64,000 nucleotides of DNA from Tetradesmus obliquus (lineage: Eukaryota; Chlorophyta; Chlorophyceae; Sphaeropleales; Scenedesmaceae), in NCBI GenBank assembly GCA_030272155.1, contig CP126196.1, positions 2,852,001-2,916,000 on the forward strand, in the 5' to 3' direction. Below the pieces are notes generated by a model. The model was not told the origin of the DNA. It did not search any database and saw nothing but the letters and a program-made list of their open reading frames with translations. The position numbers were made by a program, and so were the translations under genes. Shown here piece after piece: positions 3,744-63,009 of this stretch; the first letter of the stretch is position 1; each line of letters opens with the position of its first letter.

Positions 3744-5692
3744 TTGAAGCAACTGGCTGATGTGCTGCACCCAGTTGGTGGTGTATGTACAGCCAGGTTT
3801 TCAATGGATCGTTTACGCTTTGACGATAGCGAACATGTAGAGGACCGAGATGATGTTTATCTGTTCAGCGGGAGCACGCTGAACAGCAGCAGCGGCGTCC
3901 CAGACACATCAGGGCCAACATGGTTCCAGGCAGCAGCTGCCAGCAGTGCTAGCGCACGTGAAGCACCACAGAAGTGCCTAGATGCGCTGTCCAGGGGCCG
4001 CAGGTGAGATGCTGTAACCTTTGGCAGTGAAACAGCATACCACCCAATACAACAAAGAATCCAACCTAGCTGGTGTTGCCCATGCCCTATTCAGGTGGCT
4101 CTGGGGCTCAGGCCTGTCTTGCGCGCTGCTTGCATCAATCATCTACAGTTTCAGTGATGAGCACACACTCCGCCATGCCAAACATGCTGCCACCTGCTCG
4201 AGGGGTTGTTGCAGCGTTCTGTGCCAGCATCAACTTATCCATCATGGCAGCAGCGCCACTGGGGGCTGGCCAATTGGCGATTTTGCGATACTGAAGAAAT
4301 AGGGAACGGCTTAGGGAATGGTTAGGGAAAGCAGTTGTAAGTGCAGTGCAACACATCAACAATAGCTCTGGTGCACTATGCGCTGCATATGCACATGTGC
4401 AGCAGTAACCCCCGATCAGTGCCTGCAATCATCTGCACTCCATGCACCTACTTCACCGCGCTGCTGTGCTGCACCACAGGCTTGTGTGTCATACTGACAG
4501 GAGGCAGGGTGCCTGTGTTGGAGGTGTGCCTGGTGCGCAGCTCCATCTCCTTCTGCATCACTATTCTCATGAGGAAGACCGCGCAGATGCAAGGGCCCAT
4601 CTTCGGGCAGCGCAGCAACCTCCCCGTGCTGTGCATGCGAGGTGCGCTGCAACAGCAGCCAGCAGCACAGCAAATGCCACGGATGCCTCTGCCACAGCCC
4701 CAATCTGCAAGCCGTTCCTTAGAGCAACGGCCCCAGGCAACGCATAACACGCCTTGGATTCAGTGATACTTGCGCAACCTGGCCAGTACATTTCTAGGGT
4801 GGCCATCTGCGGCCACCATGTACCAGTACACCGCTGGCAATGAAGCATACGTGTTGCACTGCACCACTCCATGATCAGGTTGCTGTGGGGCGTGCAGTGT
4901 CACTGCTCAGTACATCGGCCTATTCCTGCTGCCCCTGGGCGATGCCGTCACCATCACCCTGGTCGGCCCCGCTGTCACAGCACTCATGGCACGTGCCTTG
5001 CTGAATGAGCCACTAGGGTGAGCAGCAACACAGGTCATTGCGTTACATCACAATACAGCACACATTGCTGCTGGGCAGGTTCAGCGCAGCGCCTGTTACA
5101 GCGCCTGCTTTGAACTGTAGAGGGGTCACTGCCAGCACCAGGCTGCTGTGCATCCTCTAGCATCTTAGCTGTTGCTTACAGTAGCTTTGCTCTGCAGTTG
5201 ACGCGCGCTTGACACCTGAATCTGCAGGTACCGAGGTGCAGCTGGCTGCCTGATCTCCATTCTGGGTGCGGTGGTGCTGTCGCGCCCGCCGTTTCTATTT
5301 GGCGGTGAGCAGTGGAGCAGGAGCCAAGCTATTGGCACAGCAGCAAGCACTGCTGCTGCATTCCTGGGCTCTGGCAGCAGCCTGACTATCAGGCTGATAG
5401 GCAACAAGGAGCCTGCTGCAGTCATTGCCATATGGTGAGGCCGGCACGGGTGCGCCACAGCAGGACTGCAGCATATTGTGCCTCATAGCCGCTGCCTACT
5501 GCAATGTACATGTGGCCGCCACTCGGTACGTGCTGCATTCGTTGTTGCTGCTGTCTCCCATACATGTGGCACATACTTCATGTGCTCTCCATGCTGCTGC
5601 CGCCTGCTGCTGCAGGTTCCACACCTGCGCCATACGCCTTGCAGTCCCTGCCTGCTGTCTTGCACGCGACACCCACTTGAAGCGCTGCAATC

Positions 5693-5746
<54 letters not shown>

Positions 5747-7654
5747 ACTGCAGGTTCCACACCTGCACCATGTGCCTCACAGCCATCCCCCTGGCGCTCG
5801 GCTGGCCCAGCAGGTTTGCGCTGGTGTCGCGTGGTGATGCTGGGCTGCTGCTAGGCGTTGCAGCCACTAGCTCAGTGGCTCAATTGCTCAACACGCGAGG
5901 GCTGCAGCTGGTGGTGGCAGCCAAGGCAGCTGCAATGGGCTTCACAAAGGTGCGCGTTACTGTATCATGCGTGCCTGTAACAACGACGTCCTCAGCGCTC
6001 TGCACCGTCGTGGTGACACTCTGCAAGTGTTGTGGATGATCATCATGTGGCACTGATATGTTTAGCATCCTTCAGCCGTGACAGGGGCCGATGGCTGCAT
6101 TTCCCTGGCTGGCTTGGTTAATGAGACGTTATTAACATGATGCCGATGATTATGCGGCAGGTTTTCTACTCCTACCTGCTGGGCGCCCTCTTCCTCCATG
6201 ACCGCATCACTCCACTGGGCGTGCTAGGGGTGGCCCTCATCCTGGCAGGGGTGCTGCTGGTCACTGGCGGCCTGCAAAACGCAGCACCCCGCGGCCAGCA
6301 GCAGCAGCAGCAGCTGAGGCCGCACAGCCATCAGCACCAGCAAGCTTTGCAGCAGCTGCTGCAATGGAAGGTGCTGCTGGCCAGCGGCAGGCAGCCAGCC
6401 TTATGCCAAGCCTGAGGAGGCGATCATCCACGAAAGCATCCGCGTCAATGATGCAGCCGCTGCTGATGCAGCTGAGCGACGTGTCCGCACCGCATACGGC
6501 AGCAAGCGGCGGTGGTGGCGATTCAGCGGTGGTTGTCACGGCTGCTGGCACAGCATTGCCACTGTTGCGAGCAGGGTCAGCTCCCTCAGCTGCTGCAGCT
6601 GCAGGTGCAGGTGCAGGGAGTGGCGGCTTGCATGATGTTGACAATGCAACCCCACGGCACAAGAAGCCAGGCGTTCTGTCTTCCTTTGTACATGCGGCCT
6701 TGCAGTCGGCAACATGCGATGAGGGAGCTGGCCGCGCTGTTGCGGGTGAGTGCTGCTCATGGTTTGTAGCTGCTGGTGTGCCAAGCACAGAGGCGCTTGC
6801 CAGCAGAGATCTGATACGCAAGGATTGCAGCAGCCGTTGTACACTATGGTGTACTGCATAGGAGCTGCCTCTCACACTTGTGATGTCATGGTCATACAAC
6901 ATACCAAGCACGCATGTTTGCATGGCATGCATCAAATGCCTTCTTTGCTGCACCACCAGGCACCAATCTTGACGCTGCTATTTAACGTGCCATGCACTTT
7001 ATAGTGCAACAAATTTGTTGCTGCTGCACCAGCTTTGCATGTTTGCCATGCACCAACTTCTTTTTTCCTGCAACACCAGGCACTGAAGATGACACTGAAC
7101 ATGAGCAGCAGCTGGGGCGAATGGCAGCTGAAAGGGCAGCAGCACTGGGCGGGGAGCTCGGCCCAGCCACCACTGCTGCGCTGGCGCACTGCACCGCAGT
7201 GTCATGCATCAGCAGGGCTTCCAGCAGCCTCATACCCGGCCTCAGCACAGCCCATAGCAGCGCATTTCCTGCCAGCTTCAACCAACTGCAGGCTGTACCA
7301 GCCACACCAAAGGCAGACGGCACCAACATGATTGAGCTAGAGCCGCTGCATGATGGAGCTGGCCAGCACCATGGTGCAGCAGCAGCAGCCACTGGATCAG
7401 GAGCTATTGAGCAGGCTGTAGCAAGCGGACAGCAGCCAGCGCGGTCTGCAGGTGAAGTGTCTGGCACCCGTCTGTCTGGGCAGCTGACAAGCTGGTTGGC
7501 AAGCACGCTGCTAGCCGTGCCGCTTGCGACAGACCAACAGCTGCAGCAGCAGCAGCAGCAGCAGCAGCCAGGCACAGATATGCTGGAGCAGGACGCACTG
7601 CAGCTGCCATGTGGAGATGAGGTGCGTGAGTTGAGCTTCCTGGACAAGAGCTAG
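3744..7654 (+). CDS. EamA/DMT-family membrane transporter with long C-terminal tail
   Basis: Exons: 3744 or 3804-4003, 4095-4153, 4480-4641, 4879-5017, 5228-5434, 5754-5949, 6161-6745, 7080-7654. The first six exons read through in one frame and show the drug/metabolite transporter fold: GSGLSCALLASIIYSFS, GGRVPVLEVCLVRS, YIGLFLLPLGDAVTITL, a second half with AQLLNTRGLQL, and the last helices VFYSYLLGALFLHD and GVLGVALILAGVLLV. About ten membrane helices are expected in two EamA repeats. Substrate unknown; relatives include solute carrier family 35-like and nucleotide-sugar transporters. After the last helix the frame enters a CAG run at 6298-6315. One frame stops at 6415. The adjacent frame stays open, is Ala/Ser-rich and splices in phase to 7080-7654. 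A frame change near the CAG run is therefore needed for the long tail. Confidence 0.8.
5606..5652 (+). repeat. Decoy copy of transporter exon 6 5' edge
   Basis: The acceptor plus first roughly 25 bases of the real exon at 5754 (FHTC) recur here with changes, upstream of the real exon and within the same intron. It leads to no usable exon. Confidence 0.75.
5699..5749 (+). repeat. (CTG)n tract ending at an acceptor
   Basis: About 16 CTG units run directly into the acceptor of transporter exon 6 at 5753. Its position suggests it replaces the usual polypyrimidine tract. Confidence 0.85.
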
Positions 7655-8362
7655 CAGAGGTAGCTGTCATTGCACAAGCTGGCGAACCTGAAGGCGTGCA
7701 TGCCTGTTCTGGACTAAAATGAGTTCAAAACAGCTGCAGACCAGCGGTAGCAGCTGTTGGCTGATGTGAGGTGTCACCGAATAACTGGCCAGGACTGCAT
7801 GAAAGATGTGCCTGCAGCCTCTGCTTGCAGCAGACAAAGCTGTTGCTGGGCAGGGAGCGGCATACGGAGCACCTGCACAATTGATGTGTGCTTGCCAGTG
7901 CTATGTTTGTCGGGTTGATGCATGCTTGGCATGATGGCACTTGATTTTGATGTGAAGCTCAAATGACAGATCGTTTCCTTGAGCTTTGGAGTAGCGGCTC
8001 GCTGGGCTGGCGCCTGGCGCGGGTTCAGTTCCGTAAGTGTTTTGTATTGTATTATTGCATTGTATTTTGAAGTCAGCACACCAATTCGAGCAAGGACTTG
8101 CCTGTGCTTCTTTTTTGCATCTTGAAATGCCTTATTTGCGCGAGGCGCAGGCAAGCATTCTGTTTCAATATACATTCTTATAAGCCATTGGCATGGCACG
8201 TGCCACAATAGCTGTGGTGGACCCGTCGGGTCATGCTTGTCATGATGAGTAGTACCATGGTCCAAGTATAACTGTCACGGTGTGCACGGTGGCTTACCCA
8301 CCGGTTCCATTGTGTTTGCGGCCGGCAGGATTTGTGATGCAGATGGCAAGATTGACCTTCTC
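7655..8362. other. Intergenic, no gene seen
   Basis: 3' flank of the transporter. Only short frames without recognisable protein; no RNA gene recognised. Confidence 0.4.
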
Positions 8363-9395: not shown

Positions 9396-9429
<34 letters not shown>

Positions 9430-12905: not shown

Positions 12906-15191
12906 CAGCAGCAGGCTGCCCCTCGCTGCCATCTGCTCCTATCGACTTGACTGCATCTGAACCTCCTGCTGCTGCACTATCACCACCATAACTCTGCTGT
13001 TCAGCAGCACCAGCTGCCAGTACTGCTGCTGCCACTGCTTGCAGCGCCGCATTGCTGCTGCCGCTGCCAGCAGCAGTGCTTGCTGGCCGCCCGTGGCTGC
13101 ACACTGCTGCGTCAAACACCCAGGCTGGCAGGATGTACTCGTATTTGCGCTTGTCGCAGAACTTGCGGGCATCGAAGCCCTCCGTGGCCCGCTGCACACC
13201 AAACACGCGGATCTGCAGCCACGCAACGCAGCAGCAGCAGCAGCAGCAGCAGTCACGAATGGCCTCATTAAGGCGCCGGCAGCACCGCGCGATGCCCGCT
13301 GCAGGGTCCACGATGAGCTTGGCGCTGAACACCCTGCAGGCTGCGTGCACGTTATTTCGACAGCTGCTGCCGCACACTTGCAACTGCAACCCCACCTGCT
13401 GTGGCAGCAGTGCGTTGATGCGCCGCACAGAACGTCTCCGCAGGGTCCACAACCAGCTTGGCGCTGACCACCTGGCAGGCTGACTGCACCTGCTGCTGCC
13501 GAAACACCTTTGCAGCTGCGCCTGCTGCCAGCTGGTATCCGGGCTGAGGTATGCGTGCACTTACTGACCCAAACTGCGTGCAGATGCCACAAGCACATCA
13601 CACTTGATGTGTACACTCTGCAGCACACCTTGACAGGCTCACCTGCTGCGGCAGCAGAGCATTGATCCGCTCCACAAAGGTCTCCGCAGGGTCCACGATC
13701 AGCTTGGCGCTGACCACCTGGCAGGCTGCTGACACGCCCTTGTCGGTGCGCGCGGCACGCATCCAGTGGATCTGGCAGCAGCAGCAGCAGCAGTTGCAGT
13801 TGCAGTTGCGCCAGACAGCAGCCAGGTGCCTGCTAGCGCTGCAATCTGCAGGATGCGTACAATGCAGCTGCCTAAAATGCACACCCTGGCCCCTGGACGG
13901 CACATCGGTGCAGCACCAAAAGCCCAGCAGTCCATGCAGCTGCTGCCAGCCTCTGCCGCTGCAATCTTGCCAGCCAAGGGCACCCCCACCTTCTAAAACT
14001 CCCGGCGATCTAATCGCTGATGGTTCCCGCCCGCACCAGCGCGGACTTTAACAACCCTAGCGCGGACCGTAAAACCCAAGCTACTCGGTCTTACCTTCAT
14101 GAAGCTGCCTGCATTCGAATCAGAGATGGCCCCTGCCTTGACCAGCGCCGAATCTAACACCCTGGCACGAACCCTACAACCCTAGCATTGTCCCCAAAAC
14201 CCTACAGGTGAGGTGGCACACCTTCATGAAGCTGCCTGCATTCTGGTCAGAGATGGCCCCTGCCTTGACCAGCACAGCTTCCAGCTCAGCCTCTATTGTG
14301 GGGCAGCCGGGGTTGCGCTGCATGCCCTGCGATTGGTAGAGAACAGGAACAACACACAACATCCATGTCAACAACACACAGAGGTGGTATACATCACAGC
14401 ACCTTCACAAGTGCAATGGCAAAGCAGCTGCAAGCCAGGCGTGGGACATTATGCATGGTGCCCATGCAGCATCTGGTTCACTACTTCAAAAGACATGCGC
14501 CAAGCAGCTGCAGTGCACAGCTCTGCCACGTCTCACATGGCAGCCAGCTCCTAGGCAGGCCAATTGCATCATCAAGCATCTACATACAGCATGCCATGTG
14601 ATAGAGGCAAAGGTTGCAACATGCAGCTGCATATTTAGCTATACAGCGTCTTACATGGTAACCTGCTCCCAGGTAGGCCAGGTGCATGGCCACCTTGCGC
14701 TTGCGGCCAGGCTTCGGCTGCAGCCGCTCCCCGCCAGGCTGCTTATCACCTGCTGCTGCTGCTGCTGCTGCTGGTGGTGCTGCTGCTGTCTCTTGTGGTG
14801 CTTCAGCAACAGGTTCTGATGCCTGGTTCTGGGCTGCTCCATCTGCTGCTGCCACAGCTGCTGCTGGTGCTGCTACGGCCGCTGCCGGCTCCACTGCTGC
14901 TGCCGCTACGTCAGATGACTGCTGCTGCTGTTCAGTAGCCAGGCAGCTAGTGCCTGCTGCTACTGCCTCTACCATAGAGTGAACTAAGCCTGATGCTGTG
15001 TGTTTGGCTGCTGCTGGTGCACTTTGTCCTGGGCGGCAACTGCTGCTGCTGCTACTGCCAGTGCTGCTGGTAGTCCTGCTGCAGTGTAGCGCGATCAATG
15101 ATCGTACAAGGTAAAGGACACCATCCTTGTTGCAGCGTATCCCGCTGCTGAGTGGTTCTGCTAGCCCTACCGCTGTTATAACCCCAGGCAC
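9330..15191 (-). CDS. PUS1: tRNA pseudouridine synthase, Pus1/TruA family
   Basis: Eleven exons, all in phase: 15191-14655, 14326-14222, 13771-13643, 13212-12752, 12446-12335, 11834-11694, 11476-11360, 10790-10689, 10482-10397, 10031-9752, 9524-9330. The product is about 754 residues from the upstream Met, or about 682 from the Met at 14975; the start is uncertain. Landmarks: KRKVAMHLAYLGAGYHGMQ, the catalytic motif RAARTDKG (Asp is the nucleophile), FDARKFCDKRKYEYILP, YEGTHNFHNYT, GQSFMLHQIRKMV, MAPELGLFL and ETYYDAFNRKW. The enzyme converts uridine to pseudouridine in tRNA and other RNAs. Exon 4 carries a long Ala-rich insert, and the C-terminus is Lys/Gln-rich with NAKAKQEAAAKRE. Introns hold decoy copies of exons 2, 3, 6, 7 and 10. 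Head-to-head with POLD4. Confidence 0.9.
10109..10175 (-). repeat. Decoy copy of PUS1 exon 10 5' edge
   Basis: Acceptor and first roughly 40 bases (FTKWARWAPVR) of the exon at 10031 are repeated upstream, followed by a second CAG run. The copy diverges after the Arg codon. Confidence 0.85.
11115..11170 (-). repeat. Decoy copy of PUS1 exon 7 3' edge
   Basis: The exon end encoding TPMAPELGLFL plus its donor recurs about 200 bp downstream of the real exon 7 (11476-11360). Confidence 0.85.
11846..11892 (+). repeat. (CAG)n run, (CTG)n in the gene's sense
   Basis: About 15 triplets just upstream (gene sense) of the PUS1 exon 6 acceptor at 11835. Confidence 0.85.
11911..11980 (-). repeat. Decoy copy of PUS1 exon 6 5' edge (first)
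   Basis: Encodes VKVAATDPAARRFIHSFSAS almost unchanged behind its own AG acceptor, but lacks the rest of the exon. It lies upstream of the real exon 6 at 11834. Confidence 0.9.
12029..12092 (-). repeat. Decoy copy of PUS1 exon 6 5' edge (second)
   Basis: Encodes VKVAAADPAARRFIHSFS and then diverges. Third instance of the same exon edge in one intron. Confidence 0.9.
13290..13346 (-). repeat. Decoy copy of PUS1 exon 3 (second, short)
   Basis: Encodes FSAKLIVDPA, matching the middle of exon 3, and then decays. It lies downstream of the real exon. Confidence 0.8.
13398..13486 (-). repeat. Decoy copy of PUS1 exon 3 3' part with donor
   Basis: Matches the last roughly 85 bases of exon 3 (VVSAKLVVDPAETF, then RINALLPQQ) with a one-base shift between the two pieces and an intact GTGGG donor. 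The frameshift means it cannot substitute cleanly for exon 3. Confidence 0.9.
14009..14152 (-). repeat. Two decoy copies of PUS1 exon 2 3' part
   Basis: Bases 14096-14152 repeat the exon 2 end (VKAGAISD..NAGSFMK) with a GTAAG donor. Bases 14009-14052 hold a more decayed copy (LVRAGTISD). Both are downstream of the real exon 2 (14326-14222). Confidence 0.85.
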
Positions 15192-19229: not shown

Positions 19230-19271
<42 letters not shown>

Positions 19272-22367: not shown

Positions 22368-23966
22368 TCACTCTGGCGTCCAGAGCCACCTCTGCAGGTC
22401 TGTGTGCAGCTGGTCCGCACTGCCTAGAGCCAGATCCTCCAGCAACTGGTCCCGAGAAGCCATCAAAGCAGCGTTAAAGCTCGGTATTCCGCAAGCTGTC
22501 TGAAGTTGGCACACCAGCTCCTGCCGGCTCAGGCCTGCGTGCATGCCCATCACAGTGGCAGCTGCCAGCTGCAGCTCTGCAACACGCTGACTGCCGTCTG
22601 TGGTGCTTGAAGCTCCAGATGTCTGCTGCAGTAGCGGCTCAAACACCTGCTCTGCCAGCCGAGCAGCGATGCACCATGAGATCAGGTAGCAGTGGTACGT
22701 CCCGTTGCTGGCAGCCATCACTGGCAGCAGCGACAGCTGCAGCGCAAGCACACAACGGTAGTGCCAGCAGTGACAGCATAGCTCAGTGCAAGCCTTCATT
22801 TTTTTGCACTTGAAGTTGCCAGCCATGCAAAAACCAAACATGCTGACACAGCTGCAAGCATTTCACAACCACACCTAGTTGTTCACGCAAACACGCCGAT
22901 ATTCCCTGCTCCTGCAGCCGTCCCTGCAGACCACCCACCCAACACCCCACAGCGCCCTGCTGTACACTGCTGCCAGCTCACCACTACATCCTCACCTCCG
23001 TCAAGCTGCCAGCAACAGCAGCAGCTCCCAAGAGCCCCTGCGGATGCCACAGCCCCCTGCCTCATCCCCATAGCCCCTGCGGATGCCACAGCCCCCTGCC
23101 TCATCCTCATCCCCATGCCCAAACATCTGCATCCCCACAGCTGCCTGCCCAAAACACCTACAACCCCCGCCAGCGGCAAAAAGCTGCAAATCCTGCAGCC
23201 CTCCCCAGCAGCTCAACACACCACCAACCACGCCCTACCATCACCAACTCACCTCGCGCAAGCTGCCAGCAGCAGCAGCAGCGCCAGGCAGCTCACTCAG
23301 CAGCTGCCAGGAGCCCCTCCAGATGCCACAGCCCCCTGCCTCATCACCATACTGCCCCAACATGTGCTCAGCAAGGCCGGCAGCAGCACGCGCTGACAGT
23401 GCAAGCGGACTTGCATAGCGGCGGCTGTAGTAGCTGGCAAGGGGTCCAGCTAGATGCGCAGGCAGTGGCTGTGCTGTCTGATGGTGGTGGCAGAGCTGTG
23501 CCAAGATGTGTGGTGAGGTGAAGAGGCGCTCGAAGAGCTGCGAGGGGACCTCCAGGAGGCTTGGGGGTAAGAAGCGGCCTGACAGGTGGCAGGCGGGCTG
23601 CCTGCGTTGGCAGTAGCAGTGTAGGCACGTGCACAAGTTGATTGCTAACCTGGTATTGGATGCAGCTGCTTGAGGTGTAGGTGTGTGCGGACACAAACCT
23701 GCTAGCTGCACAGGGCTTGAGCACTTCACCAGAAACCAGCAGGGTGGGCAGCACTAGGGGTTGCCTCCAGCTGAAACCTTTACGCACCTGCTGCTGAGCA
23801 CCAGGTGCAGTGCATGGCCCATCTCATGCCCAAACTCCCACAGCTGTGCCACACTCAGCACGAGCGCATCATCGCCAGCACTGCTGCTGCTGCTGCTGCT
23901 GCTGCCGGGCTGAGCCAAGTCACTGGCAGCGTCATCAAAGTCATCACATGGCTGCTCTTGCAGCAA

Positions 23967-23997
<31 letters not shown>

Positions 23998-24834: not shown

Positions 24835-24865
<31 letters not shown>

Positions 24866-25437: not shown

Positions 25438-25474
<37 letters not shown>

Positions 25475-41925: not shown

Positions 41926-43788
41926 GTCGATTCACCAGAAACGTTGTGCATGTCCAGTTGAGCCGTTTCCCATTTAAGGTCGTCCTGACATGTGCATACT
42001 CCTGCTTGCTGCAGCAGCTGCTCACTTTGCCACTTCTGCCTTCTCAGGCGTTGATGTTGTGCCGATGACCTTGGCGCCAATGTGGCTGCACAGCTGGCAC
42101 AGCAGCTGCCCCGTGCCACCAGCAGCTGCATGCACCAGCACCCAGTCACCTGCATGCATCGCAACACAAACACTGATGCACAAGCGCGACAGTAATGCAC
42201 AAGGTCAGCTCCTAGCTGAGACACACGGCAGCAGCTGGTGTCTGCACACTCACATGCCTGACGTGTAAATCAAAAGTGCTAGGCAACTCACCAGGCTGCC
42301 TGTCAGGCTGCAGCGCGCACGTGAAGCCGCAGCAATCCAACCTTCCTGCAGGCCAGCTACTCGAAGCAACAACAATACCACCACCAGCTCTGCCCAGAGC
42401 CATCTAGCCAAGCCAGCACCACCCACCCCACCTGCAGCAACTTGGCAGGTCGTCTTCACCATCGACAGTGCCGTCAGGCCCTGCAGCAGCACAGCAGCAG
42501 CAGCCTGTGTGCTGACACCTTGTGGCAGCTTGGTGACCAGGCCAGCCTGCACTGCTGTAAACTCAGCAAAGCTACCGCCCAGGGTGGAGCGGGACACATA
42601 GCCAACACTGTCGCCGACTGCCAAGCCAGTGACGCCTGCACGCACAGCAGCAACGCACAGCAGCGCAGCCAGGCAGGTGTTTTGAGTGTCAGAAAACAAC
42701 AACATACACTCAATTATCAAACAACAGCCAGCTTTTTTATGGTTGCATGCTTGGTGACCAAGCCAGCCTGCACTGCTGTGAACTCAGCAAAGCTGCCGCC
42801 CAGGGTGGAGCGGGACACATAGCCGACGATGTCGCCGACTGCCAAGCCAGTGACGCCTGCACGCACAGGCAAGTGCCAACAGCCAGGCCTTATGGCAGGT
42901 GGAGTTACACGTGCCAGTAAAAACAAGAAGAAGGGCATTATGTTAGTTGCATGCTTGTCGTTCAGCTGCAGGAGCGGGCATTACATGTTGCGATGTGCAT
43001 GTGCTCAGCAGCACAGAAGTAGCGGGCGGAGGTGAATTCGTGTGTAGCTGCTGCATGTAATTACATTGTGTACTGTTGCTGCAGTGACAAGCTCACCTGG
43101 TCCCACTTCTACCACTGTGCCTGCGCCTTCCTCCCCTAGGCCTGCAGGGAACGTTGAACGAGGGTACAGCCCGCTGCGGTGGTATGTGTCTATGAAGTTC
43201 ACCTGGAAGGCACGTAGCAGCAGCATGTGGCAGTGGCAAAGACACACACCGGTATTGGGATGCACCATATGATGTAGCAGTGAGCAGGGGTTGATATATG
43301 CAAGGCAGGGTTCTGCCAGCACTGATTAAACCTACAGCAGCTTTGCGAGTGAAGCGTGCTGTTGTGCCCATCATGCCGTTGTGCCCATCATGCCATGATG
43401 ATGGGCATGCGCACACACGCGGATGTGCTGCACCCCAGGCAGCAAGGTGCAGAGCTTGCAGGGAGACCATATTACTGTTTGTGTGGGAAGTTGCTTGTAA
43501 ACGAACTCATTGCACTGTGCAGGGCACCCATGCGTTTCCTGCAAGCAAATGCAGCAGCTCACTCACCCCAGCATACTCATTCTTGATGACAACCTGGCCC
43601 TCCCCTGCAGTCGGCCTGTCGATGTCCGTGAATTTCAGGACCTCTGTACCTCCGTGCTCGTTGAATATGACCGCTTTCATGCTGCTGGCCATGGATCTGC
43701 AGTGGATTGCGAAAGCTTTGGAACTGGGTGTGGCAGCAGTACACCTGCCAAATGAACGCCTGAACAGCGTGACAGAAGCTCCACGCAT
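40858..43788 (-). CDS. Zeta-crystallin-like quinone oxidoreductase (MDR family)
   Basis: Seven in-phase exons: 43788-43567, 43202-43097, 42635-42432, 42149-42026, 41865-41778, 41563-41442, 41092-40858. They give 366 residues including a presequence-like N-terminus (MRGASVTLFRRSFGRC) before MKAVIFNEHGGTEVLKF; without it, about 330, the family size. Landmarks: VNFIDTYHRSGLYP, GLGEEGAGTVVEVGPG, the NADPH-binding VLVHAAAGGTGQLLCQL, FDASLKCLDYLGWLICFG and a C-terminal LTGRKTTGKLLLRP. The enzyme reduces quinones with NADPH and lacks the zinc ligands of alcohol dehydrogenases. Organelle import is inferred from the presequence. A decoy copy of exon 3 lies in intron 2. Divergent from LSM8. Confidence 0.9.
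41874..41924 (+). repeat. (CAG)n run, (CTG)n in gene sense
   Basis: About 17 triplets ending near the acceptor of quinone oxidoreductase exon 5 (41865). Confidence 0.85.
42745..42858 (-). repeat. Decoy copy of quinone oxidoreductase exon 3 5' half
   Basis: Repeats the acceptor and first roughly 110 bases of exon 3 (GVTGLAVGDIVGYVSRST, FAEFTAVQAGLVTK) nearly perfectly and then breaks off. It lies about 220 bp upstream of the real exon start at 42635. Confidence 0.93.
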
Positions 43789-49746: not shown

Positions 49747-49844
49747 TGTTGCGCTTGCGTTGGGCCACCACAAGCAGCACGTGTGCACACCCACACCCAC
49801 ACAAACACCTGCATCAACGTCCATAAGACATACATTATGCAGAA

Positions 49845-52800
49845 TCATGACCTGTACTTCTTCACGAGCCATGCCTCCAGCTGCTCCAAGCACTGCGGCA
49901 AATTCTGCCTCCCCAGGCCAACCCTGAAGTGCCCCCGTCGCACACTCGGCTCATGGTCATACACCCCTGCCGGCAGCAGCAGCACACCACTCTCATTCAC
50001 CAGCTGCTCACACCACTGCTCAACATCCTCCCCAGTAGTCAGCCTAGGGAAGGCAATGGGGCCGCCTTGAGGCCTGTGCCACTCAAAAACGTCAGTCCAG
50101 CGGGCAAAGAAGGCGTCTGCTGCGGCCAGGTTGGTTGCGATGATGTCCCTGCAGCGCTGCGTGAGCTTTGGGGTGGCCCTCACCGCTGCCAGCGCAAGCA
50201 CCTGCAGGGCGGCAGCACGGGCAACAGAGGATAACATAGCCTGGTGGTGTGCGTTGGCTGCTTTCAGTTGCGGCATGCTGCTGCATCAGTGTGCTGCTCC
50301 AGGTGTGCTGCCGTCATTCCATGTGTCTCAGGGTTCGAGTATACCAAGCGAGTTAAATTATGCACAAGGGACAGCGCAGTTCACCCGTGGCTTCATTCTG
50401 CTGCAGTTTGAATGGCACACCGTTTCATAGCTGAGCTATCAGTGCACCGGCGGCAGGCGTACCTCAGAGGTAGCTGGGCTGCAGATGGTAGTGTAATCCT
50501 GCAGCACACAGCAGCAGCAATGCACAGCTCTCTCAGCGCTTCAAAGGCTGTACTGCGCATCACTTTCCTGCAAGCTGAGCTCCCCTATCGTATACGCTCG
50601 CGCAACAATGATGTTACAAGCAACTACGCCCGCCCCGTACGCCGCACGTTCCGTGCCAGCACCTGCAGCAGCAGCTGCGCATCCTGGTAAGCCAGCCAGC
50701 CCAGCCGCAGCCTGGGCAGCCCCCAGCCTGCCACCCAGCCCATTACCCAGCCTGAGACTCCTCGTTCACAGGTGGACCCACCTTCAGGGCTAGCACCTGC
50801 TGCAGAAGTTGGCTGTCCTGGCAGGCCAGCCAGCCCAGCCGCAGCCCCGGCAGCCCCCAGCTCTTGCTCAGCCCACACAGCGACACGCCGCGCTCGTAGA
50901 CGTCAGCAGCAGCTGGCAGCGGCGCGCTGGGTGGCAGCTCTGCATGAGGGCATGATTAACAGCAGGCAATGACAGTACATGTGGCCACTGAACAGCCACG
51001 CATGGGGACTTGTGAAGGTGACATAAGCAGTAACCAGCGTCACTTGCGGGCGTGAACGCCAGCGCTCACCCATGACTCGTCCATCTCGTCACACAACGGC
51101 CACACATGTGGGCTTGCACACAAACAGGTAACAAACAGCTGCACTGGTGGAGTTGAATGCCAGCTCACTTGCGCGCCAGCGCTCACCCTTTAACTCGTCC
51201 ATCTCGTCGCACAACGGCCACACATGTGGGCTTGCACATAGGTAACAAACAGCGTCACTGGTGGAGTTGAATGCCAGCGCTCACTTGCAAATAAGACGAT
51301 GCTAAGCATGGTAAAAGCATAGCCGCGCACCTTCAAGCAATGCTGGTCTAGAAGCCCCCCACCCTGGGCTCCTGACGCTCGCTTGCACGCCAGCACTCAC
51401 CCGTGAATTTGTACATCTTGTCACTGAACAGCCACACATATGGGCTGGCACATAGGTAACAAACAGCGGCACTGGTGGAGTTGAATGCCAGCTCACTTGC
51501 ACGCCAGCACTCAATTTCGCATGATGCTATGATGCTATCATGCTGGACAGCAGTGCTTGCATGGACGCCAACTTGGAGCGCCGGGGGACCTTGGGGGGGG
51601 GGGGGGGGGGGGGTCTCCCGGACAAGCAATGCTTGAAGGTGCGCAGCTTTGCATTGTTCATGCTAGACTGTCCATCTCTACTCACCCGTGAACTTGTACA
51701 TCTCGTCGCTGAACAGCCAAGCACCGACCTCCCTGCAGTGGCGTATGAGTGCGGCCCAGTTGCCAATGCTCAGCGTGGCCCCTGTGGGGTTGTGCGGGAA
51801 GTTGACCACCACCAGCTTGGTGCCAGGCTGGATCAGCGCCTGCACACAATGTTGTCAGATTTCAAGTCAGATATAAAATGACGCCATTGATCCCCAGAGG
51901 CAGCGGACGCCAGCAGCGTGGTGCCCGGCTGGACCAGCATGCAGGCGCCTGCATGTGTGCTTTGAAGTACACATGTAACACAAATGTAACACAAATGTAA
52001 CACCACACGGATGTGTGTTATGAAATAACACACAGTGTGACAAGATGCTCATATGTGAGATGACAGGGCTGTCATGCCAACGACATGCAGTCAGGGGAAG
52101 TTGACCACCACCAGCTTGTGCCCGGCTGCATCAGCGCCTGCATGTCTGTGTGATGAGATGCACATGGGTGTCATGAGTTGCATTTGAAACCATTGTGATG
52201 GTATCAACAGGCAGGCAGAGTATGTCTGCTGGGTGCGCCTGTGCGCACAACTTGCCAGCCCTGGAGAGTAGCTCCCTTGCTCAAGGGATCAATGCAGTCC
52301 ATACAACCCGGCCTGCGTAATCATGGCCATGCGCTGATGATGTGTGAGCAGCGCCCCTGACAAATGTTGCTACTCACCCTTGCTTCTTCTATGTTGAACT
52401 CCAGCCCGCCACTGCCTGCTGCGCCTGCTGAGCCCGCTGCAGGCTTTGGCTCCCAGTGGCTGATGCTGCAGCCGCAGGTGGCTGCCAGCTCATGCAGGCT
52501 CTGGTAACCTGGTTGCACACCACAATGCAGCACAGCAGCCGTCATAGCACAGCACAACGCAACGAACCTAGCCATCATAGTGCAACAAGCAAAGGCATCA
52601 TTCAGCTCATGCGTGCCGTCCACAGGCGCACGGGGATTGAGCCAAAGCCACTGGCGCTGATAAACACGTTCATCCATGTACGTCGCCAAACCCTGGTCAA
52701 CACCAGCGCATGCGTCAGCAAAAAATATGGTTGACGTGGCAGCCGCAGGTGGCTGCCAGCTCGCGCAGGCTCTGGTAACCTGCTTGTTGAAGACACAAAC

Positions 52801-55598: not shown

Positions 55599-58500
55599 AT
55601 GCGGGGTGCACGGGCACCGTGCCTGTGCCTGCTGCTGCTAGGGGCGTGCAGTGCCGTGCAAGCGCAGTTCGATCTCTTTGGAGGGCTGACTGGCCTCACA
55701 GGAGGGTTGATCAACACAGGCTCGTCGTTAGTAACAGGCGGGACAGGGCTGGGCACGGGCTTTTCTGTCGGGGGGTTGGGCATTGGCACGCCAGTGTACA
55801 CCACCCCTGCAGCAGCAGGCGCACCCGCAGCAGCAGCAGCAGTACCAGCAGCAGGCCCCACCACCTACAGCACCAACAACTTGCTGGGCTGGCTGTTCCC
55901 TGTGTTCACACCAGCACGCAGGGACAACTGCGTTGTGTATGAGGTGCGTGGCATGGTCCTGAAGGCTGTGTTGCTGCAGCTGCCCTGCCAGCCTGAGCAC
56001 TCACGGGTGCAACCTGCATGCAGTGCCGGCAAGATTGGTGCTGCAGGATGTGCACCGCTCACACCCTATCAGTGTTTAGATACTGCAATCACTCCTGCTA
56101 CATGCCAGCGAACAACGTATGGGTAAGGATTACTTGTAACTGCCACAGTGATTTCGGATAACAAGCCCTCGAAATGCCCCTACCCCTAGGGGCCTTGGCA
56201 CCAGGGCTTGTGCCCGAAATGCCCCAGCCCCCCCCCTATCCGAAGCCCCTTTTCCCAGTGAGATTTGGCCATGAAAGGCTCCGCACCGCCCCCAGCCCCC
56301 CCTGCACCGCCCCCCCCCCCCCCCCCCCCGCTATCCAAAGTCACTGTGACAGTTACAAGTAATCTCTACCCTATGAGCTTGTGTTTGTGCCCCGCGACAC
56401 GCCAGCATGTCACTAACAACATCGCTGCATCGTCACACGCTGCCGCACATGCTGCAGCCCACTGCTGCCATCCTTTCACAGGAAAGCACCAGCCAAATCC
56501 TGCACCACAGCTGCATTACTCATTACCGCCATGCTGCATCTTCCTGCTTTCTATGCTGTGTCACAGGGCAGCGGCAGTGAGACAGTGCAGACGGTGTCGA
56601 GGCTGTTTCGGCTGGACTACCTCAACGTGCTTGCTGACAACCAGGGCAGCCTCAGCAGTCCAAACCAGCCCCTGGCGGGGCGCAGCATCCTGCTGTGCGA
56701 CCGCAACGGTGCGCAGCTGATCTGGTCAATCCTTGTCAGCTTGTCAGCTTGCCAGCTTGCCAGGTTGTCAGCTTGTCTGGTTGTCTGCTTGCCAGCTTGC
56801 CAGCTTGCCAGCTTGCCAGCTTGCCAGCTTGTTGGAGTTCGGGGCTTGCCAGTTGCTGAGCAGCAGCCAGCAGCAAGCTGGCGGGACGCTAGGGTCGGCA
56901 GCAGCTTAGACTTGCCAGCAGCCAGCAGCAGAAAGCACTTGCAGGTACCAACTGCATGCCTGTGGTGGTCAGCAGCTGGCAGGCACATACACCTGCAACA
57001 GCGTCGGCTACATGACATCACGCCACTGGCATCATCCCACAAAGCACACCAGAGCCTGATCACTGGGCATGCACAATCGTCTGCTGCTGCTGCTGCTGCT
57101 GCTTCGTTTTTTTTTTCCAAAGCAAGATCGTTACCCCTGATCGTTACCCCTCCTGCTGCTTCGTGCTGTTAGGTCAGCGCCCGCAGCCGCGCGGCTGGCC
57201 AGGCCCGCGGCCTGCCACGCCCGCTGCACCAGCTGCTGCTGCTGCTGCTAGGCCTCCAGCTGCTGCCGGCAGACCTCCAGTTGCTGCTGCCCGGCCGCCG
57301 CCAGTTGCAGTGCGGCCAGCAGCACCTGTGCCAGCACCCATCAGGGCCAATGCGCCTACAGCAACAGCAGTAAAGTCGCTGGTGCCGCCAGCAACACAGG
57401 CGCAAGGTGGGTGCACTGGAGAAAGCACAGATATCAATGGCAGCACCTGTCAGGTTGTGTAGCATAGCAGTAGGCACAGCGGTGCGAGGATGTAGGGTGG
57501 TAGCTGCTGCTGCAGCAGCGGTTGGTTGACTTTACTGCTGCTGCTGCAGCAGCGGTTGGTTGACTTTACTGCTGCTGCTGCAGCAGCGGTTGGTTGACTT
57601 TACTGCTGCTGCTGCAGCAGCGGTTGGTTGACTTTACTGCTGCTGCTGCAGCTGCAGGGCATGTATGTGTCATGCTTGCACGCAGATTGCGACATGCGTG
57701 CCAGTTTGTAACACACGTATCTTGCTGTCTGCGCTGAGTGGTGGTGTGTACTGCAGCGCTGCTGCAGTACCAGGCCGCAGTGGATCCCATGCGCCAGCTT
57801 GTGACACCTAAATCAGTCCGCTTGTGTTCTGTTTGCTGTGCTGCAGCGCTGCTGCAGTTCAAGGCGGCAGTGGACCCCGCCAATGCAGTGCTGAAGGACT
57901 GGAGCAGCCGGCTGCTGCACTGCACCTGGGTGTATGTCACCTGCGATCGCAACCAGAACATCATCAGGTAAACCGGTGATCTTGTTGTTTTCGGGTGTGG
58001 CACGATGGCATGTGTACTGTTGAAGGGAGTGTACTGCTTGACTCATGTTACGCACGCAGCCCAGCAACACAAGCCTGCCTGGGTGCTGTTAGCATTGCGT
58101 ACACAGGCATGGTTGTACAGTGGTGGCGTGTTGCTGCACTATGCCTGCCTGGATGCTAATATCATGTATCACAGCACCCCGCCACTACTGTCAGACTGCA
58201 CTGCTGAGTGGCTGTGTGGCTTTTGCTGTGACATAACTACCTAAAAGCACCTATGTAAGCTTTTCGTGCTGCTGCTGGTGCTATTGCTGCTGCCAGGCTG
58301 AACATGGTGTACCTTGGGCTGGCAGGCAAGCTGCCGGATGGCAACGTGATGAAGAACCTGCCACACCTGACACACATGTGAGGGGACAATGCTGACAGGG
58401 CAACTGGCAGCAGCTGTCGCATGCAGCTTAATGCTTGTACCCTTCCTCAGCATCAAATAGCGCTGCTGGGAGAGATGGGTCTGCTGCTGCTGCCCGCCTA

Positions 58501-60944
58501 CTCAGCTTGCTGCTGTAGCAGTCGCAACTCTGCACTGACCGCACAGCATACATGGTCATTGCTGCCACAAGACAGCCACGCCAGGGGCACCACAACAGCA
58601 GCAAGTGCATATGCATCTTCTTGTTCTGAGTACTTGCAGCCTGCACCGCTCCCTGCTACTTGCTTCTCACCAATATCATGTTCACCTGCTGGCATTGCCT
58701 GCTGCTGCACCACACCATTCTGCAGCTACCTGGGTGGCAACCTGCTGAAGGGCACACTCCCAGCCAGCTGGGGCACCACACTGAAGCCGGTGGAGCTGTG
58801 AGTGTGAAATGCATACCTTGAAGTTCATAGTTTTCTTTCTACATTGTGACGTGCTTTTGGTGAGGGGCACTACCAGCCAGTTGAGGCACCATGCTGAAAC
58901 CTGTGGTGCTGTGAGTGTGGAATGCATCCGTGAACATTGCATTCTGTAGTGTGAAGCGCTGTTGGTGAGGGACAGCCTGCCAGCCAGTTGGGGCACCACG
59001 CTGAAGCCCGTGGAACTGTGAGTGACACTTAAGATGCATACTGCCCTTTGCACTGCATGCAGCCGTGTGATGTTGTATGCCTTCGCAGTGTGCTTCAGTC
59101 AACCACCTGAAGCGCACAAGTAACTGAGGAATAACTTGACATGTTGCACTGCCTTTTGGGCAAACACAGAGCTAATCTCGCTTCTTCTGCACCTGAGGGC
59201 AGCTGTGCGCTATGGTGCAGGCTGATCAGCGCGTTGGCAGCATATTGTCTGATGGGTACCATCGCTGCTGCTGCTGCCGCTGCCGCTGCTGCTGCTGCTG
59301 CTGCTGCAGGTTTTTGAATGACAACCAGCTGGAGGGGCCCCTGCCTCCTCAGTGGGGCTCCATGAGCACACTCAACGTGCTGTGAGTGCCTGCAGGCTGT
59401 GTATGCAGATCCATTCAATGTGCGACCCAGCAGCTGCAGAAAAGCGCACTGCAGCACAGCAATGTGTATGCCGGGCAACATCCCTCTGCCAGGCAAAATG
59501 GGGCTGTGACTTTCAGCGCATGCTGCGCCATACTCCTCTCGCAGCAACGTTTGTTGCATTTCCAGCTGTCGCTAAAAGGCCAGCCTGTGCATCCTTGTGA
59601 CTGCTACAAAGTTGTGTCGTCATGGTGCTTCATATCTCAGTCTCAGTCCGTGCCACCTTCTGCTGCTGCTGCTGCTGTTCACAGGAGCCTGCCGTACAAC
59701 CAGTTCACTGGGGGCCTGCCCCGTTAGTGGGGTGCCATGAGCAGCCTGCAGATCCTCAAGCTTTACAGCTGCTGCGACTCTGATACAAATCTTAGTTAGC
59801 ACTGTCCGCTGTCTCTACGTGCAGGAGCCTGCCGTACAACCAGTTCACCGGGGGGCTGCCCCCTCAGTGGGGTGCTATGACCAGTCTGCATATCCTCAAG
59901 CTCAACAACAACAAGCTGCGGGGAGGCGTGCCGCAGACCTACGGCAACCTCAAACAGATCAGCACCATGTGAGCGGGATGCAGGTGTTTTGTTCAAAAAA
60001 ACTGCTTTACAGTGGATTCTGCATTGCAGGGTGAAAGACAGCGTCAAGCAGATCAACACCATGGTTTGCGCAGCTGGCTTCGTTGCTTGCTTGGTGGGAT
60101 TGGTGTCAGATTTCTTCAGTCACAGCCGGTGCATGCGCTCCTCAAGCTGCGGGGAGGCGTGCCGCAGACCTATGGCAACCTCAAGCAGATCAGCACCATG
60201 TGAGCGGGGTGCGGATGTCTTTCATGCCATCATAGAATGGTGTGGGCGGCGCCGGGCACGTCTAAGTGACAGCCAGTGCACGCATCACAGTCGCAGCTGG
60301 TTGACATTGCTGCACACCGAAAGGCAAAACGTCAAGATCAGCAACAGGCATAGTCCTGGCAGCCAGCATCTGCTAGCAAGAGACTGCACAGCCAGCAGCA
60401 GCAGCAACCAACGTGCAGACACTTCTTACAGTTGCCGGCTGCTCTGTGCAGCTGCAGCTGCATGGCCAGGCACAGATGCAGGCCTTCTCGCGTATACCGC
60501 AGCAGCTGCTGACATGCTGCCCTTGCTGTTTATTCCCACCACGTGCAGCACCATCTTCAACAACCCTCAGATGGCTGGCTGCGTGCCTGAGGCGTGGAGC
60601 GGCAAGAGCAAGAATGGCGTGGGTGAGTGCGGCGCGTGTGGTGCCACCACCCCAGTGGCGGTCGCGGCTGCCTGGTGGGGATGGTGCAGCAGATGTCCAG
60701 TTCAGATAAAAAATCCAAGTGCAAATGTCCCAACATCTAGCAATGCCTTTGCTGCCTTTGCTGCATGTGTCGCAACCATGTGTCATTCTCCACAGGCAGC
60801 TCTTGTGCCTTGACCACTGGCAGCATGTGTCGTTCTCCACGGGCAACCTGTGGGCTCTATGCTCACCCAGCACACGCAGTTTCTTGCAGCATCTCTGACC
60901 GTGTCTGGTTCACCTTGCACGCGCTGAGACACTCCTGTGTGTGG

Positions 60945-60996
<52 letters not shown>

Positions 60997-61105
60997 AGGC
61001 TACTTCCAGTCGCCCTCTGGCACGCTGTCTGACGACATCAAGGACGCCACACGGGGCACAGCCATCACGGGCTTCTGCTGCAAGGGCTGGCGCTACTGCG
61101 TGTGA
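55599..61105 (+). CDS. Secreted LysM-like / leucine-rich repeat protein
   Basis: Ten in-phase exons: 55599-55943, 56567-56708, 57173-57406, 57847-57967, 58297-58377, 58726-58797, 59310-59381, 59825-59968, 60549-60622, 60999-61105. They give 463 residues. A signal peptide (APCLCLLLLGACSAVQA) is followed by a Gly-rich stretch. Next is a LysM-like segment (CVVYEGSGSETVQTVSRLF, YLNVLADNQ, LAGRSILLCD) and a Pro/Ala linker. Then comes a plant-type LRR N-cap (ALLQFKAAVDPANAVLKDW, CTWVYVTCD) and about six LRRs (LNDNQLEGPLPPQWGSM, LPYNQFTGGLPPQWG, LNNNKLRGGVPQTYGNL). The C-terminus is Cys-containing (GFCCKGWRYCV). No membrane helix or kinase is seen, so it is probably extracellular. The CAA-G to CG-CTG splice joining linker and N-cap shows that both halves are one gene. 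Confidence 0.82.
56121..56371. mobile_element. MITE-like element with ~40-bp terminal inverted repeats in LRR gene intron 1
   Basis: Left arm gattacttgtaactgccaca (56128 on) pairs with the right arm at 56332-56364. Allowing mismatches the arms extend to gggta at both ends. A tat trinucleotide flanks each side. The interior is C-rich, including a run of 20 C at 56310-56329. No coding capacity. Confidence 0.8.
56730..56842 (+). repeat. 8-bp tandem repeat (cttgccag)
   Basis: About 13 units of cttgccag with variants (cttgtcag, gttgtctg) in intron 2 of the LRR gene. Confidence 0.9.
57501..57655 (+). repeat. 34-bp tandem repeat, four copies
   Basis: Units start cagcagcggttggttgactt at 57513, 57547, 57581 and 57615; nearly identical. 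Located in intron 3 of the LRR gene. Confidence 0.95.
57750..57801 (+). repeat. Decoy copy of LRR N-cap exon 5' edge
   Basis: Acceptor plus ALLQYQAAVDP-encoding start repeated about 95 bp upstream of the real exon at 57847 (ALLQFKAAVDP). Confidence 0.9.
58852..59027 (+). repeat. Two decoy copies of the LRR exon ending at 58797
   Basis: Bases about 58860-58920 and 58968-59025 repeat the exon end (LPASWGTTLKPVEL plus GTGAGTG donor). The first has a stop (CAG to TGA context), the second is closer to the original. Both are downstream. Confidence 0.9.
59681..59765 (+). repeat. Decoy copy of LRR exon 8 5' part with in-frame stop
   Basis: Encodes SLPYNQFTGGLPR followed by TAG where the real exon has a Gln codon, then WGAM. 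It lies about 140 bp upstream of the real exon (59825). Confidence 0.92.
60027..60205 (+). repeat. Two decoy copies of LRR exon 8 3' edge
   Basis: Bases about 60033-60065 hold a short copy (VKQINTM). Bases 60138-60205 repeat LRGGVPQTYGNLKQISTM with the GTGAGCGGGG donor. Both are downstream of the real exon end at 59968. Confidence 0.9.
60949..60995 (+). repeat. (CTG)n tract ending at the last LRR acceptor
   Basis: About 15 CTG units running into the acceptor of the final exon (60999). Confidence 0.9.
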
Positions 61106-61144
61106 GGCTGCAGCTGCTGCTGTGTGTAAGGAGCCGCTGCTTCT

Positions 61145-61440
61145 GTCGCAGCTGCTGCTGCTGGCTATCAGCCATCACCAGCTACAGCTGCAAGGGCTGG
61201 CGCTACTGGGTCTGAGGCCGCCGCCGCTGCTGCTGGTGGCTGCTGGCTTTCAGCCGTCACGCTTCTGCTGCAAGGGCTGGCGCTACTGTGTGTGAGGCTC
61301 TGACGCTCAGCCATCACCAGCTTTTTGCTGCGGTTGCTGGCACTGCCGTGTGCAAGGCAGCAGCTGCTGCTGGTGGCTGCTGGCTCTCAGCCATCGCAGG
61401 CTTCTGCTGCAAGGGCTGGCGCTGCTGCGTGTGAGGCAGC
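61145..61440 (+). repeat. Four decoy copies of the LRR gene's terminal exon end
   Basis: Copies at about 61165-61215, 61250-61298, 61308-61360 and 61390-61438 match the exon end TAITGFCCKGWRYCV-stop. Three keep TGA at the same place; one has lost it. All follow the real stop at 61103-61105. Confidence 0.92.
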
Positions 61441-62849
61441 AGCTGCTGCTGCTGGCGGCGGCTGCTGCAGCTTGATGTCATGCGTGCGTATACGTGTAGA
61501 CTAATCTCAATGCATGGCACAGGTCTGTTCTGCTTGGACACACTCATCAAACATACAGGCTTTCATGCATGTCAGCAGCTGTTACGCCAGCTTGTCATTT
61601 GTCGCCTGGTTTGACTCACCGCACTGCCACATAACAAGTGTTGCTCAACGCAGCGTTGCAGGTGTGCTTGACTGCAGGTGGCTTACATTGCTTACTTTTA
61701 CGCATGCACACAAGCCAAGGACTGCATGCAGTGTTACGTCAAAAAGCTGGTCAGTGCCAGTTGTTGGCAGTGCGTGATTGTGCTTGCATCAGATGGAGGG
61801 GCGACTGGTCAGTGACATCGGCGTGCTTTCCAAAAACTTGTGTGAGTGCTGGACCTTTGCCACACTTACAACACTTTGTAGGTTGAGCTCTGAATGCATG
61901 CGCCAGCTGCTGTAAAAGCTGTGTTGCTGGCTGGTCAGGTCGGGTTGTGTGTCGGGAAATCGTTCAACTAGTTGCAGTTGACTGTGGGGCTGTAGAGTTT
62001 GCAGGAAGCCCTGTTGCAGCGTGCTGCCCGTCTGGCAGGCACTTTTTCACAGAGGGTTTTGGCGTGTGACAACATTAACCCTGAGCAACGTTGTAATTCG
62101 TATTTGACGATGCAGGAAGGGCTCACTGGTGTGGATGCCATCGCTTTCAACACACTGCATGGCTGGTTCCGTGGCACATTCCAACTAATCGCTGCCAGGG
62201 TGTTCTGTTACCAACGAGTAGCGACATCTGTACAGATCATCCTGGCAGCTAGCCAATATGATGATGCGGGAGCTTCCATGCACAGCCACTGGCAGCAGGC
62301 ACGGCGCGTGCTGTCCCAAACACAACCCCAAGCTTGAATGCCGCCGGCACACACAGCGGCGAAGCGAACGCAATCACTCAGTCAACACAGCACACACAGC
62401 AACGTGTGTGAGCACACATAGCTGTGGAAAAAACAGTCCCCCAATGCGACAGTCAGATGAGCCGACAGCTGCACTGTAGCGCAGTGCCCCGGTACGATGC
62501 CACCAGTCCAGCCAATGGCGCTGCCAGCAAAGCCACGCGTGTGCACATGCAGCAACCTTTTGCCTGCAAGCATGCTTGCGCCTGCGCAGGACGTGCATGC
62601 TGTGCACGGCATGTCATGACAGCTGGCTGATCGTGAACGCACAGAGGTGGAGGCGGCTGGCGGCAACCCAGCGGCGCTGCACAAGCGCTGTGCACCACGG
62701 CTAGGCGCTGGCCACATTTTCCGTGTAGCCGCACACCGCTTGAAACATCTACTACGTTTCAAATCATGTAGACATCAAATCCGCAGCAGCATGTTACAGC
62801 TGCGCCTGCTGCTGCTGCTTGGGGAGCATCCAAAGCTTGTGTCCCGTGA
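61441..62849. other. No gene resolved
   Basis: Possible isolated exon at 61794-61842 (MEGRLVSDIGVLSKNL between an AG and a GTGAGT) but no partner exons were found. Otherwise no coding or RNA gene recognised. Confidence 0.3.
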
Positions 62850-63009
62850 TGCTGTCCACCGTGGCCACCTTCAGCAGCAGGCGCCAAGATACCCTACACC
62901 CCAACCCTGGCAGCTTCAAGGCGCCTGGAACTACTACCATAGACCCTAGTCCCCTGCAGGAACTTCAGGGCGCCTGGGGCTAAACCCGATAACCTAAGCC
63001 CTGCAAGCC
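62850..63009 (-). repeat. Decoy copies of TFIIF-like gene 3' end
   Basis: ccaccgtggccaccttcagc at about 62859-62890 resembles the coding segment near 63058-63085. The segment around the stop (caaggcgcccgg) also recurs two or three times between 62918 and 63020. All lie downstream of the gene. Confidence 0.6.

Follow-up and report, generated by a model that had tools for sequence, protein, structure and literature searches.

The window, i.e. the whole analysed stretch of 64 kb, has a GC content of 56.8% and holds many CAG-type repeats. The genome it belongs to has many light-harvesting matches, which marks a photosynthetic eukaryote and most likely a green alga. In alignments, copies on both gene strands reach the splice sites and continue a little beyond them. 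Matches to PDB and Pfam identify the aminotransferase, transporter, M3 peptidase, LRR, protein kinase, E1 dehydrogenase and metallophosphoesterase genes discussed below, and PDB matches back the real exons of the quinone oxidoreductase and of PUS1. Judging by their motifs, we take the kinase to be a MAP kinase and the E1 dehydrogenase to be the pyruvate dehydrogenase (PDH) alpha subunit. The preliminary description of this DNA had reported partial copies of exon edges in the transporter, PUS1, the gene at 18084-19511, the M3 peptidase, the quinone oxidoreductase, the aminotransferase and the LRR gene, and at the gene level copies were found in every one of them.

In PUS1, on the reverse strand, the real exon at 14222..14326, which ends in LVKAGAISDQNAGSFMK on its donor side (donor end set by eye, start taken from the gene finder), has two donor-side copies. 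The first (14093..14146) is identical at 51 of 54 positions and is then followed by GT. The second, more diverged one (13988..14081) carries a stop codon and a one-base gap, has 10 of its 17 differences at codon position 3 and shares 72% similarity with copy 1 over the whole unit. Another real exon of the gene, IHWMRAARTDKG...LLPQQ at 13643..13772 (start set by eye), has a donor-side copy with a one-base, frame-breaking gap (13393..13482) and a second, truncated donor-side copy (13301..13350). The real exon of the quinone oxidoreductase (42432..42635, reverse strand) is accompanied by an acceptor-side copy at 42749..42860 with 6 differences in 108 nt, comprising four silent codons and one changed codon; the repeat pair is 42749-42851 / 42528-42630, and the upstream intron is alignable at about 75%.

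There are further copies on the reverse strand. The 18084-19511 gene holds a 30-nt pair (18888-18917/18996-19025, offset 108), either member of which may be the real one, and the M3 peptidase a probable donor-side copy at 22991..23077 of the edge at 23248-23358. The aminotransferase has a C-terminal exon pair (49572-49741/49844-50016, offset 272, 81% identical) with both frames open in the gene model, a cluster of copies at 51050..51719 with offsets of 117, 214, 285 and 331, and an exon edge at 51796-51844 with a copy at 52095-52142. Two further sets of three copies follow on the same strand, one at 52457-52515, 52728-52786 and 52906-52975, the other, 95% identical, at 53533-53576, 53832-53873 and 53958-54002. 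On the forward strand, the copy in the transporter (EamA family) lies at 5592..5639, upstream of 5731-5777, at an offset of 139 and 87.5% identity, the real edge being that of the preliminary description. The LRR gene, also forward, has an exon end (donor at 58798) with two downstream copies (58743..59024), an acceptor-side copy with an in-frame stop at 59693-59762, upstream of the exon start at 59833-59902, and an exon end at 59912-59968 with a downstream copy at 60143-60221, which keeps the donor and differs at 2 of 57 exon bases, silently in each case. A further exon end with downstream copies occupies 61059..61291 (offsets 110 and 190; a third copy at 329).

Direct repeats and splice junctions in three contigs

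The local copies were confirmed by self-alignment: self-BLAST of the window with simple repeats masked gave 50 direct and no inverted repeat pairs within 3 kb (E<=0.01). The same holds on two other contigs, where 100 kb of C1 gave 38 direct pairs (all within 1 kb) versus 2 inverted within 3 kb, and 100 kb of C9 gave 51 versus 0. Local direct repeats are therefore plentiful and local inverted ones almost absent across 304 kb of three contigs, and in this the repeats have the directness and locality of intragenic tandem (internal gene) duplication. The repeat listing leaves aside small-period arrays and the 32.5-36 kb block. Simple microsatellites were rejected as the cause, as the low-complexity 18% of the window (11,688 bases) was masked prior to counting.

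Gene models were made with our own splice-aware HMM gene finder, which was trained on the sequence itself and sometimes labels a copy as an exon. On the 304 kb it predicted 383 introns with GTGAG donors and TGCAG acceptors and a median length of 258 nt. Among 68 predicted genes of three exons or more, 23 have direct out-of-exon copies (at least 28 nt, at least 80% identity) and none has inverted ones; such direct copies cover 2.79% of exonic bases. The local, outward duplication of segments spanning a splice junction, proposed for the window, thus occurs well beyond it.

Splice junctions were compared with other sequence by means of 40-nt probes, a match being at least 32 of 40 nt within 1 kb; a probe was skipped if it was low in complexity, lay close to a sequence end or had an exon part below 30 nt. 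Direct copies were found at 61 of 517 predicted junctions (31/267 donors and 30/250 acceptors) versus 21 of 661 intron probes (10/257, 4/154 and 7/250 in three classes), a detection ratio of about 3.7; mid-exon and intergenic controls gave 3/125 and 3/321. No inverted copy was found in any probe class at this cut-off and distance, and junctions were the top class at all five thresholds from 30 to 38 of 40. Throughout the 304 kb, then, copies are not equally common away from junctions, and the enrichment that the preliminary description had supposed is real. Copies are in short supply among the intergenic probes.

The same description had gone further and proposed a process biased to splice junctions. 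We simulated duplications at random positions in exon and intron sequences taken from the models; the sizes of the units, the rate of indels and the strengths of constraint were our own choice, as was setting coding divergence to half the intron divergence. With units of about 120-235 nt and a median intron of 258 nt, 61% of the tolerated random duplications span a junction, since the lengths of units and introns are comparable. Copies dead from birth gave a simulated junction/intron ratio of 1.6-1.7; ratios of 5.4, 7.7, 38 and 400 came from the four settings to which either source divergence or shared constraint was added. Random duplication plus erosion can thus reach the observed ratio, and a junction-seeking process is not required, since exon parts are still recognisable when intron parts have eroded, although targeting may yet play a part.

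Anatomy and placement of the copies

By ungapped extension of 94 junction pairs (the anatomy table leaves out the rows with J 30707 and 30676), the match on the exon side extends over 19-171 nt, and on the intron side similarity stops within 14 nt of the junction in 67 pairs. The median visible intron extent is 9 nt. Offsets fall at 90-145 in 34 pairs and at 211-270 in 32, with one between (190) and 27 above. Since the offset is larger than the visible copy, most copies do not adjoin head to tail, so that in the claim of tandem duplication the duplication stands and the adjacency, for most copies, does not. The whole unit is clearly head to tail in some cases, and complete tandem units of high identity exist on C9 (at 79932, shift 115, 99.3%; at 65113, shift 80, 95.6%). 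Arrays reach four or five copies. In the MAP-kinase gene an exon end is followed by three copies at successive shifts of 237, 251 and 250, intron included.

Of 91 pairs, 42 have intron flanks whose homology exceeds chance, often with many gaps, and these include 19 of the 65 pairs with short intron extent; in the other 49 no significant intron homology is detectable, despite high exon identity. The homology in 42 pairs indicates that nearly half of the cases are probably duplications of intron plus exon. It also bears on the alternative that an RNA- or splice-site-linked process copies junctions and inserts exon edges without their intron flanks. The abrupt end of similarity past the junction in most ungapped extensions and the 49 pairs lacking intron homology are what such copying would produce, and so is an array at 33.2-33.7 kb of C1, in which four nearly identical 36-nt edges are separated by largely unrelated spacers. 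However, the homologous flanks of the 42 pairs, gapped as they often are, speak against it, the shared GTGAG/TGCAG motif alone accounts for about 5 matching bases beyond the junction, and random duplications with erosion can attain the junction/intron ratio. We therefore regard junction-targeted copying as distinctly unlikely.

All 12 copies whose real exons were anchored by homology (in PUS1, the quinone oxidoreductase, PDH, the MAP kinase and the phosphoesterase, two of whose four copies are included) lie on the intron side. Among 53 copies not called exons, 42 conform to this polarity and 11, at 6 loci, do not, a count that the gene finder can shift either way. Two arrays were read by eye, and in both the gene finder had taken a copy for the exon: at 4.8-5.4 kb of C6 it chose the first of four copies, although it is the last that continues into the coding sequence that follows, and copies were likewise called exons in the array of the MAP kinase. 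Thus the intron-side placement of the preliminary description holds for the anchored copies, and its "strict" polarity is not settled. An intron-side rule is expected from selection, because the protein is unchanged only if the copy adjoining the rest of the exon is used; a directional mechanism is not needed.

It had also been suggested that the decoys could seed alternative isoforms. No excess of a second splice site was seen at the far ends of the partial copies, whether donor-side (20 copies, p=0.16) or acceptor-side (22 copies, p=0.998), and the offsets, with 18/14/21 in the three classes modulo 3, do not keep frame. The combination of both splice sites and frame that mutually exclusive exons would have is thus absent from the partial copies as a group, we find no sign in favour of seeded isoforms, and full cassette exons were rejected for these copies on the same grounds. 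For a few short whole-exon arrays, a role as mutually exclusive exons is possible.

Divergence of exon and copy and the origin of the arrays

In the 53 copies not called exons (24 loci), differences at codon positions 1, 2 and 3 number 32/42/141, i.e. 66% fall at position 3 (locus-bootstrap CI 0.59-0.71). Pairs within arrays are not independent, and the locus bootstrap was applied to this main figure only. The 12 anchored copies, with real exons set by hand, gave 17/20/49 (57% at position 3), and a comparison of spare copy with spare copy gave 9/16/38 over 16 pairs; the divergence is of coding type both between exon and copy and between copies. For 15 pairs with clear intron homology, divergence was 0.175 in the intron (a lower bound, as the alignments are local), 0.196 at position 3 and 0.043 at positions 1 and 2, which is the pattern that two coding sequences under constraint would show. 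Exon and copy hence appear to have gained most of their differences at a time when both were coding. Mutation bias was rejected as the cause, neutral change with transition and GC weights set by us placing 35% at position 3. Changes at position 3 are near balance (65 GC-losing vs 51 GC-gaining), and those at position 1 are unbalanced (23 vs 5), the latter a sign of some decay.

The preliminary description had the outward copy decay, a model treated here as copies that were duplicated once, dead at birth and freely decaying. Lesions of the kind that such decay leaves do exist, namely an uncompensated one-base gap in 3 of the 12 anchored copies and stops in the second PUS1 copy and in the LRR copy at 59693. 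Nevertheless, a freely decaying copy next to a constrained one places 42-43% of differences at position 3 in simulation, with a median visible intron extent of 25-29 nt, and together with the ratio given above this model fails on three measures. Simple decay of the outward copy is thus disfavoured, and as an account of the arrays it is improbable. Source divergence or shared constraint comes closer: simulated source divergence of 0.16 and 0.3 gave 52% and 58%, both just below the observed interval, and shared constraint gave 59% and 64%, the latter with a junction/intron ratio that is much too high. No simulated setting quite attains 66%.

In another reading the copies are used, or were recently used, as alternative exon edges and are kept by selection on the protein sequence. 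Coding-type divergence even between spare copies would fit this, and the splice dinucleotide is kept in 15 of 20 donor copies (GT) and 20 of 22 acceptor copies (AG) with motif scores like those of real sites, although the probe design partly forces this result. Stops are few (4 among 367 changed codons), and there are arrays in which a short exon recurs complete with its two ends (e.g. C6 98611-98671). On the other hand, the far ends and the offsets described above do not behave as parts of used exons, the frame-breaking gaps affect anchored copies, and conserved enzymes could hardly absorb these partial repeats. Use as alternative exon edges is on balance unlikely.

The exon/intron divergence resembles that between alleles or species, as it would if the assembly had laid two haplotypes head to tail. 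Arrays of four or five copies, stops within copies, two main offset classes and the occurrence on three contigs argue against an artefact of this kind, and we consider it very improbable indeed. Searches of the genome (104.66 Mb, 17 contigs) found no close relative of the quinone oxidoreductase or PUS1 exons elsewhere, except for a CAG-type stretch at PUS1 query bases 494-574, so that a resident close paralogue was rejected as the source for these two genes; the oxidoreductase has its nearest other protein matches at 29-40% identity. A mobile element as the spacer was rejected as well, the quinone oxidoreductase copy plus spacer occurring once in the genome. The MAP-kinase copy matches its own array and one 54-base stretch elsewhere.

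We favour, with confidence a little short of even, a combination of short direct duplications with exchange between diverged alleles or lineages. Genes would suffer frequent short direct duplications with shifts of mostly 90-145 or 211-270 bp, which may start by break repair or replication slippage. A junction-spanning duplication would be tolerated only if splicing keeps to the copy abutting the rest of the exon, leaving the spare on the intron side, and arrays of up to four or five would grow by repetition. In each unit the intron part erodes as substitutions and indels accumulate, with the exon edge and the GTGAG/TGCAG motif remaining visible, and for this reason copies would look centred on splice sites. 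Because the partial copies bear no sign of translation, we infer that most of the divergence between the two versions predates their tandem arrangement. Diverged alleles or lineages would have supplied them through unequal exchange or re-association, and further rounds of exchange would have followed within the arrays.

Several observations stand against this favoured reading. An allelic divergence of roughly 0.15-0.3 would be extreme, the fractions of 0.52 and 0.58 simulated for source divergence lie below the observed interval, and the position-3 excess of the anchored subset is weaker. The 49 pairs lacking intron homology would need very fast intron turnover, and the C1 33.2-33.7 kb array has near-identical edges with largely unrelated spacers. 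In the MAP-kinase gene, copy 1 matches the real exon edge at 76 of 90 positions versus 0.90 of the aligned bases of the intron, a discrepancy that comes partly from a silent patch of 9 bases, for which the genome has no second match. The Ser/Arg codon switches in this array look like deep divergence, but a local patch from neighbouring Ser-Pro codons could explain them, and they are given no weight here. It could also be that the arrays act as a reservoir, in which unequal exchange repeatedly swaps the functional exon edge with intronic copies, so that copies are selected for coding capacity though normally untranslated and exon edges evolve by array turnover; we hold this to be rather doubtful. 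The silent-site excess itself suggests either that standing diversity is extreme or that the arrays turn over internally.

Should this sample be representative, roughly one in three multi-exon genes would hold readable records of exon-edge duplication, which would provide a direct measure of intron growth by duplication, of the reuse of spare edges and of misled gene finders.

Relation to known duplication systems

Introners are dispersed copies of one element. Unlike them, the copies tested here are local: dispersal of the introner or transposable-element kind was not found in the genome searches with the quinone oxidoreductase, MAP-kinase and PUS1 sequences. Internal gene duplication as a means of intron creation has reportedly been treated by Gao and Lynch in 2009, Rogers in 1989 and Hellsten in 2011.

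The passages of PMC9860276 that we drew on name green algae among the lineages with introners, which resemble the present copies in being repeated sequence in introns, and give internal duplications as a proposed source of introns. There, and in the passages used from PMC4974935, local duplications of exon pieces bring splice signals along, as they do here; however, AGGT-containing exon pieces make new introns in those accounts, whereas spare copies lie inside introns in ours. A tandem duplication spanning intron-exon structure is described for the potato RdRp gene in the part of Ma, Lan and Niu (2016, PMC4974935) consulted. Its direct intron-exon duplicate similarly carries its own 3' splice signals, and a second, 83-bp duplication lies inside an intron of the same gene. 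In contrast, a single gene is concerned and the duplicate became a new intron and exon, whereas 23 of 68 predicted genes are affected here and the copies counted lie outside predicted exons.

With regard to mechanism, the sections used from Schimmel et al. (2021, PMC8355091) describe small tandem duplications that arise from fill-in at broken ends in mammalian cells with induced breaks. These are direct and local like ours and, according to the authors, sequence-independent; they differ in being described as short (<100 bp) insertions and in mammalian cells. The density, intron-side array form and coding-type divergence seen here do not appear in the passages on the known systems compared, and among the titles and opening lines of abstracts in the covered part of the hit lists for open-licence literature we found no report of this pattern in a green alga.

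Ivanov and Pervouchine (2022, PMC9013439) catalogued tandem exon duplications in animals and connected them with mutually exclusive exons. The portion of that work drawn on gives, for exonic nucleotides with homologues at 80% identity or more, shares in human, fly and worm of about 2%, 0.08% and 0.06%, respectively. As in our genes, unannotated homologues of exons lie outside the exons of the same gene; in contrast to those homologues, many of ours are partial edges, and our value of 2.8% was obtained by a different method.

Spacing and genomic setting of the copies

Among the 94 pairs of a predicted splice junction and its nearby copy in the 304 kb surveyed, the distances from junction to copy cluster chiefly around 115 bp and around 235 bp, and a single value lies between 146 and 210 bp. 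Local direct copies are rarer in predicted intergenic DNA, where they were found for 3 of 321 probes, than in introns, with 21 of 661 probes over the same 304 kb.

Individual exon-end arrays

In copy 1 of the MAP-kinase array (L031:5570-5675, minus strand, L031 being the surveyed sequence that carries it), AGATCGCCA stands in place of CGCAGCCCG, and the Arg-Ser-Pro reading is retained despite this exchange. A 21-base pattern across the patch has a single match in the genome with up to 2 mismatches allowed. At C1:2033260-2033760, the 36-nt exon end VLELLKRLISKQ is present four times in almost identical form, while the spacers mostly lack mutual similarity; with its near-constant repeats and largely differing spacers, the locus resembles a repeat-spacer array.

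Gene models and longer repeats in the window

Two versions of the aminotransferase C-terminal exon, each with an open frame, lie at window 49572-50016, with a stop after the second; this is a candidate alternative last exon. The gene finder merged the M3 peptidase and a putative nucleoside diphosphate kinase into one model (window 20111-26699), which probably represents two genes.

Long direct repeats of 72-92% identity, displaced from one another by roughly 667-695 bp or by greater distances, extend across 3.3 kb at window 32517-35861; they are of another kind than the exon-edge copies and are excluded from the junction counts. Nine almost perfect 48-bp tandem units (99% matches) reading QLCIYHALNCHVTAAQ fall within a predicted exon (window 45070-45507). 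Further arrays are a perfect 34-bp one of 4.4 copies (window 57503-57652) and a 55/109-bp one of 8.7/4.3 copies (window 8335-8808).
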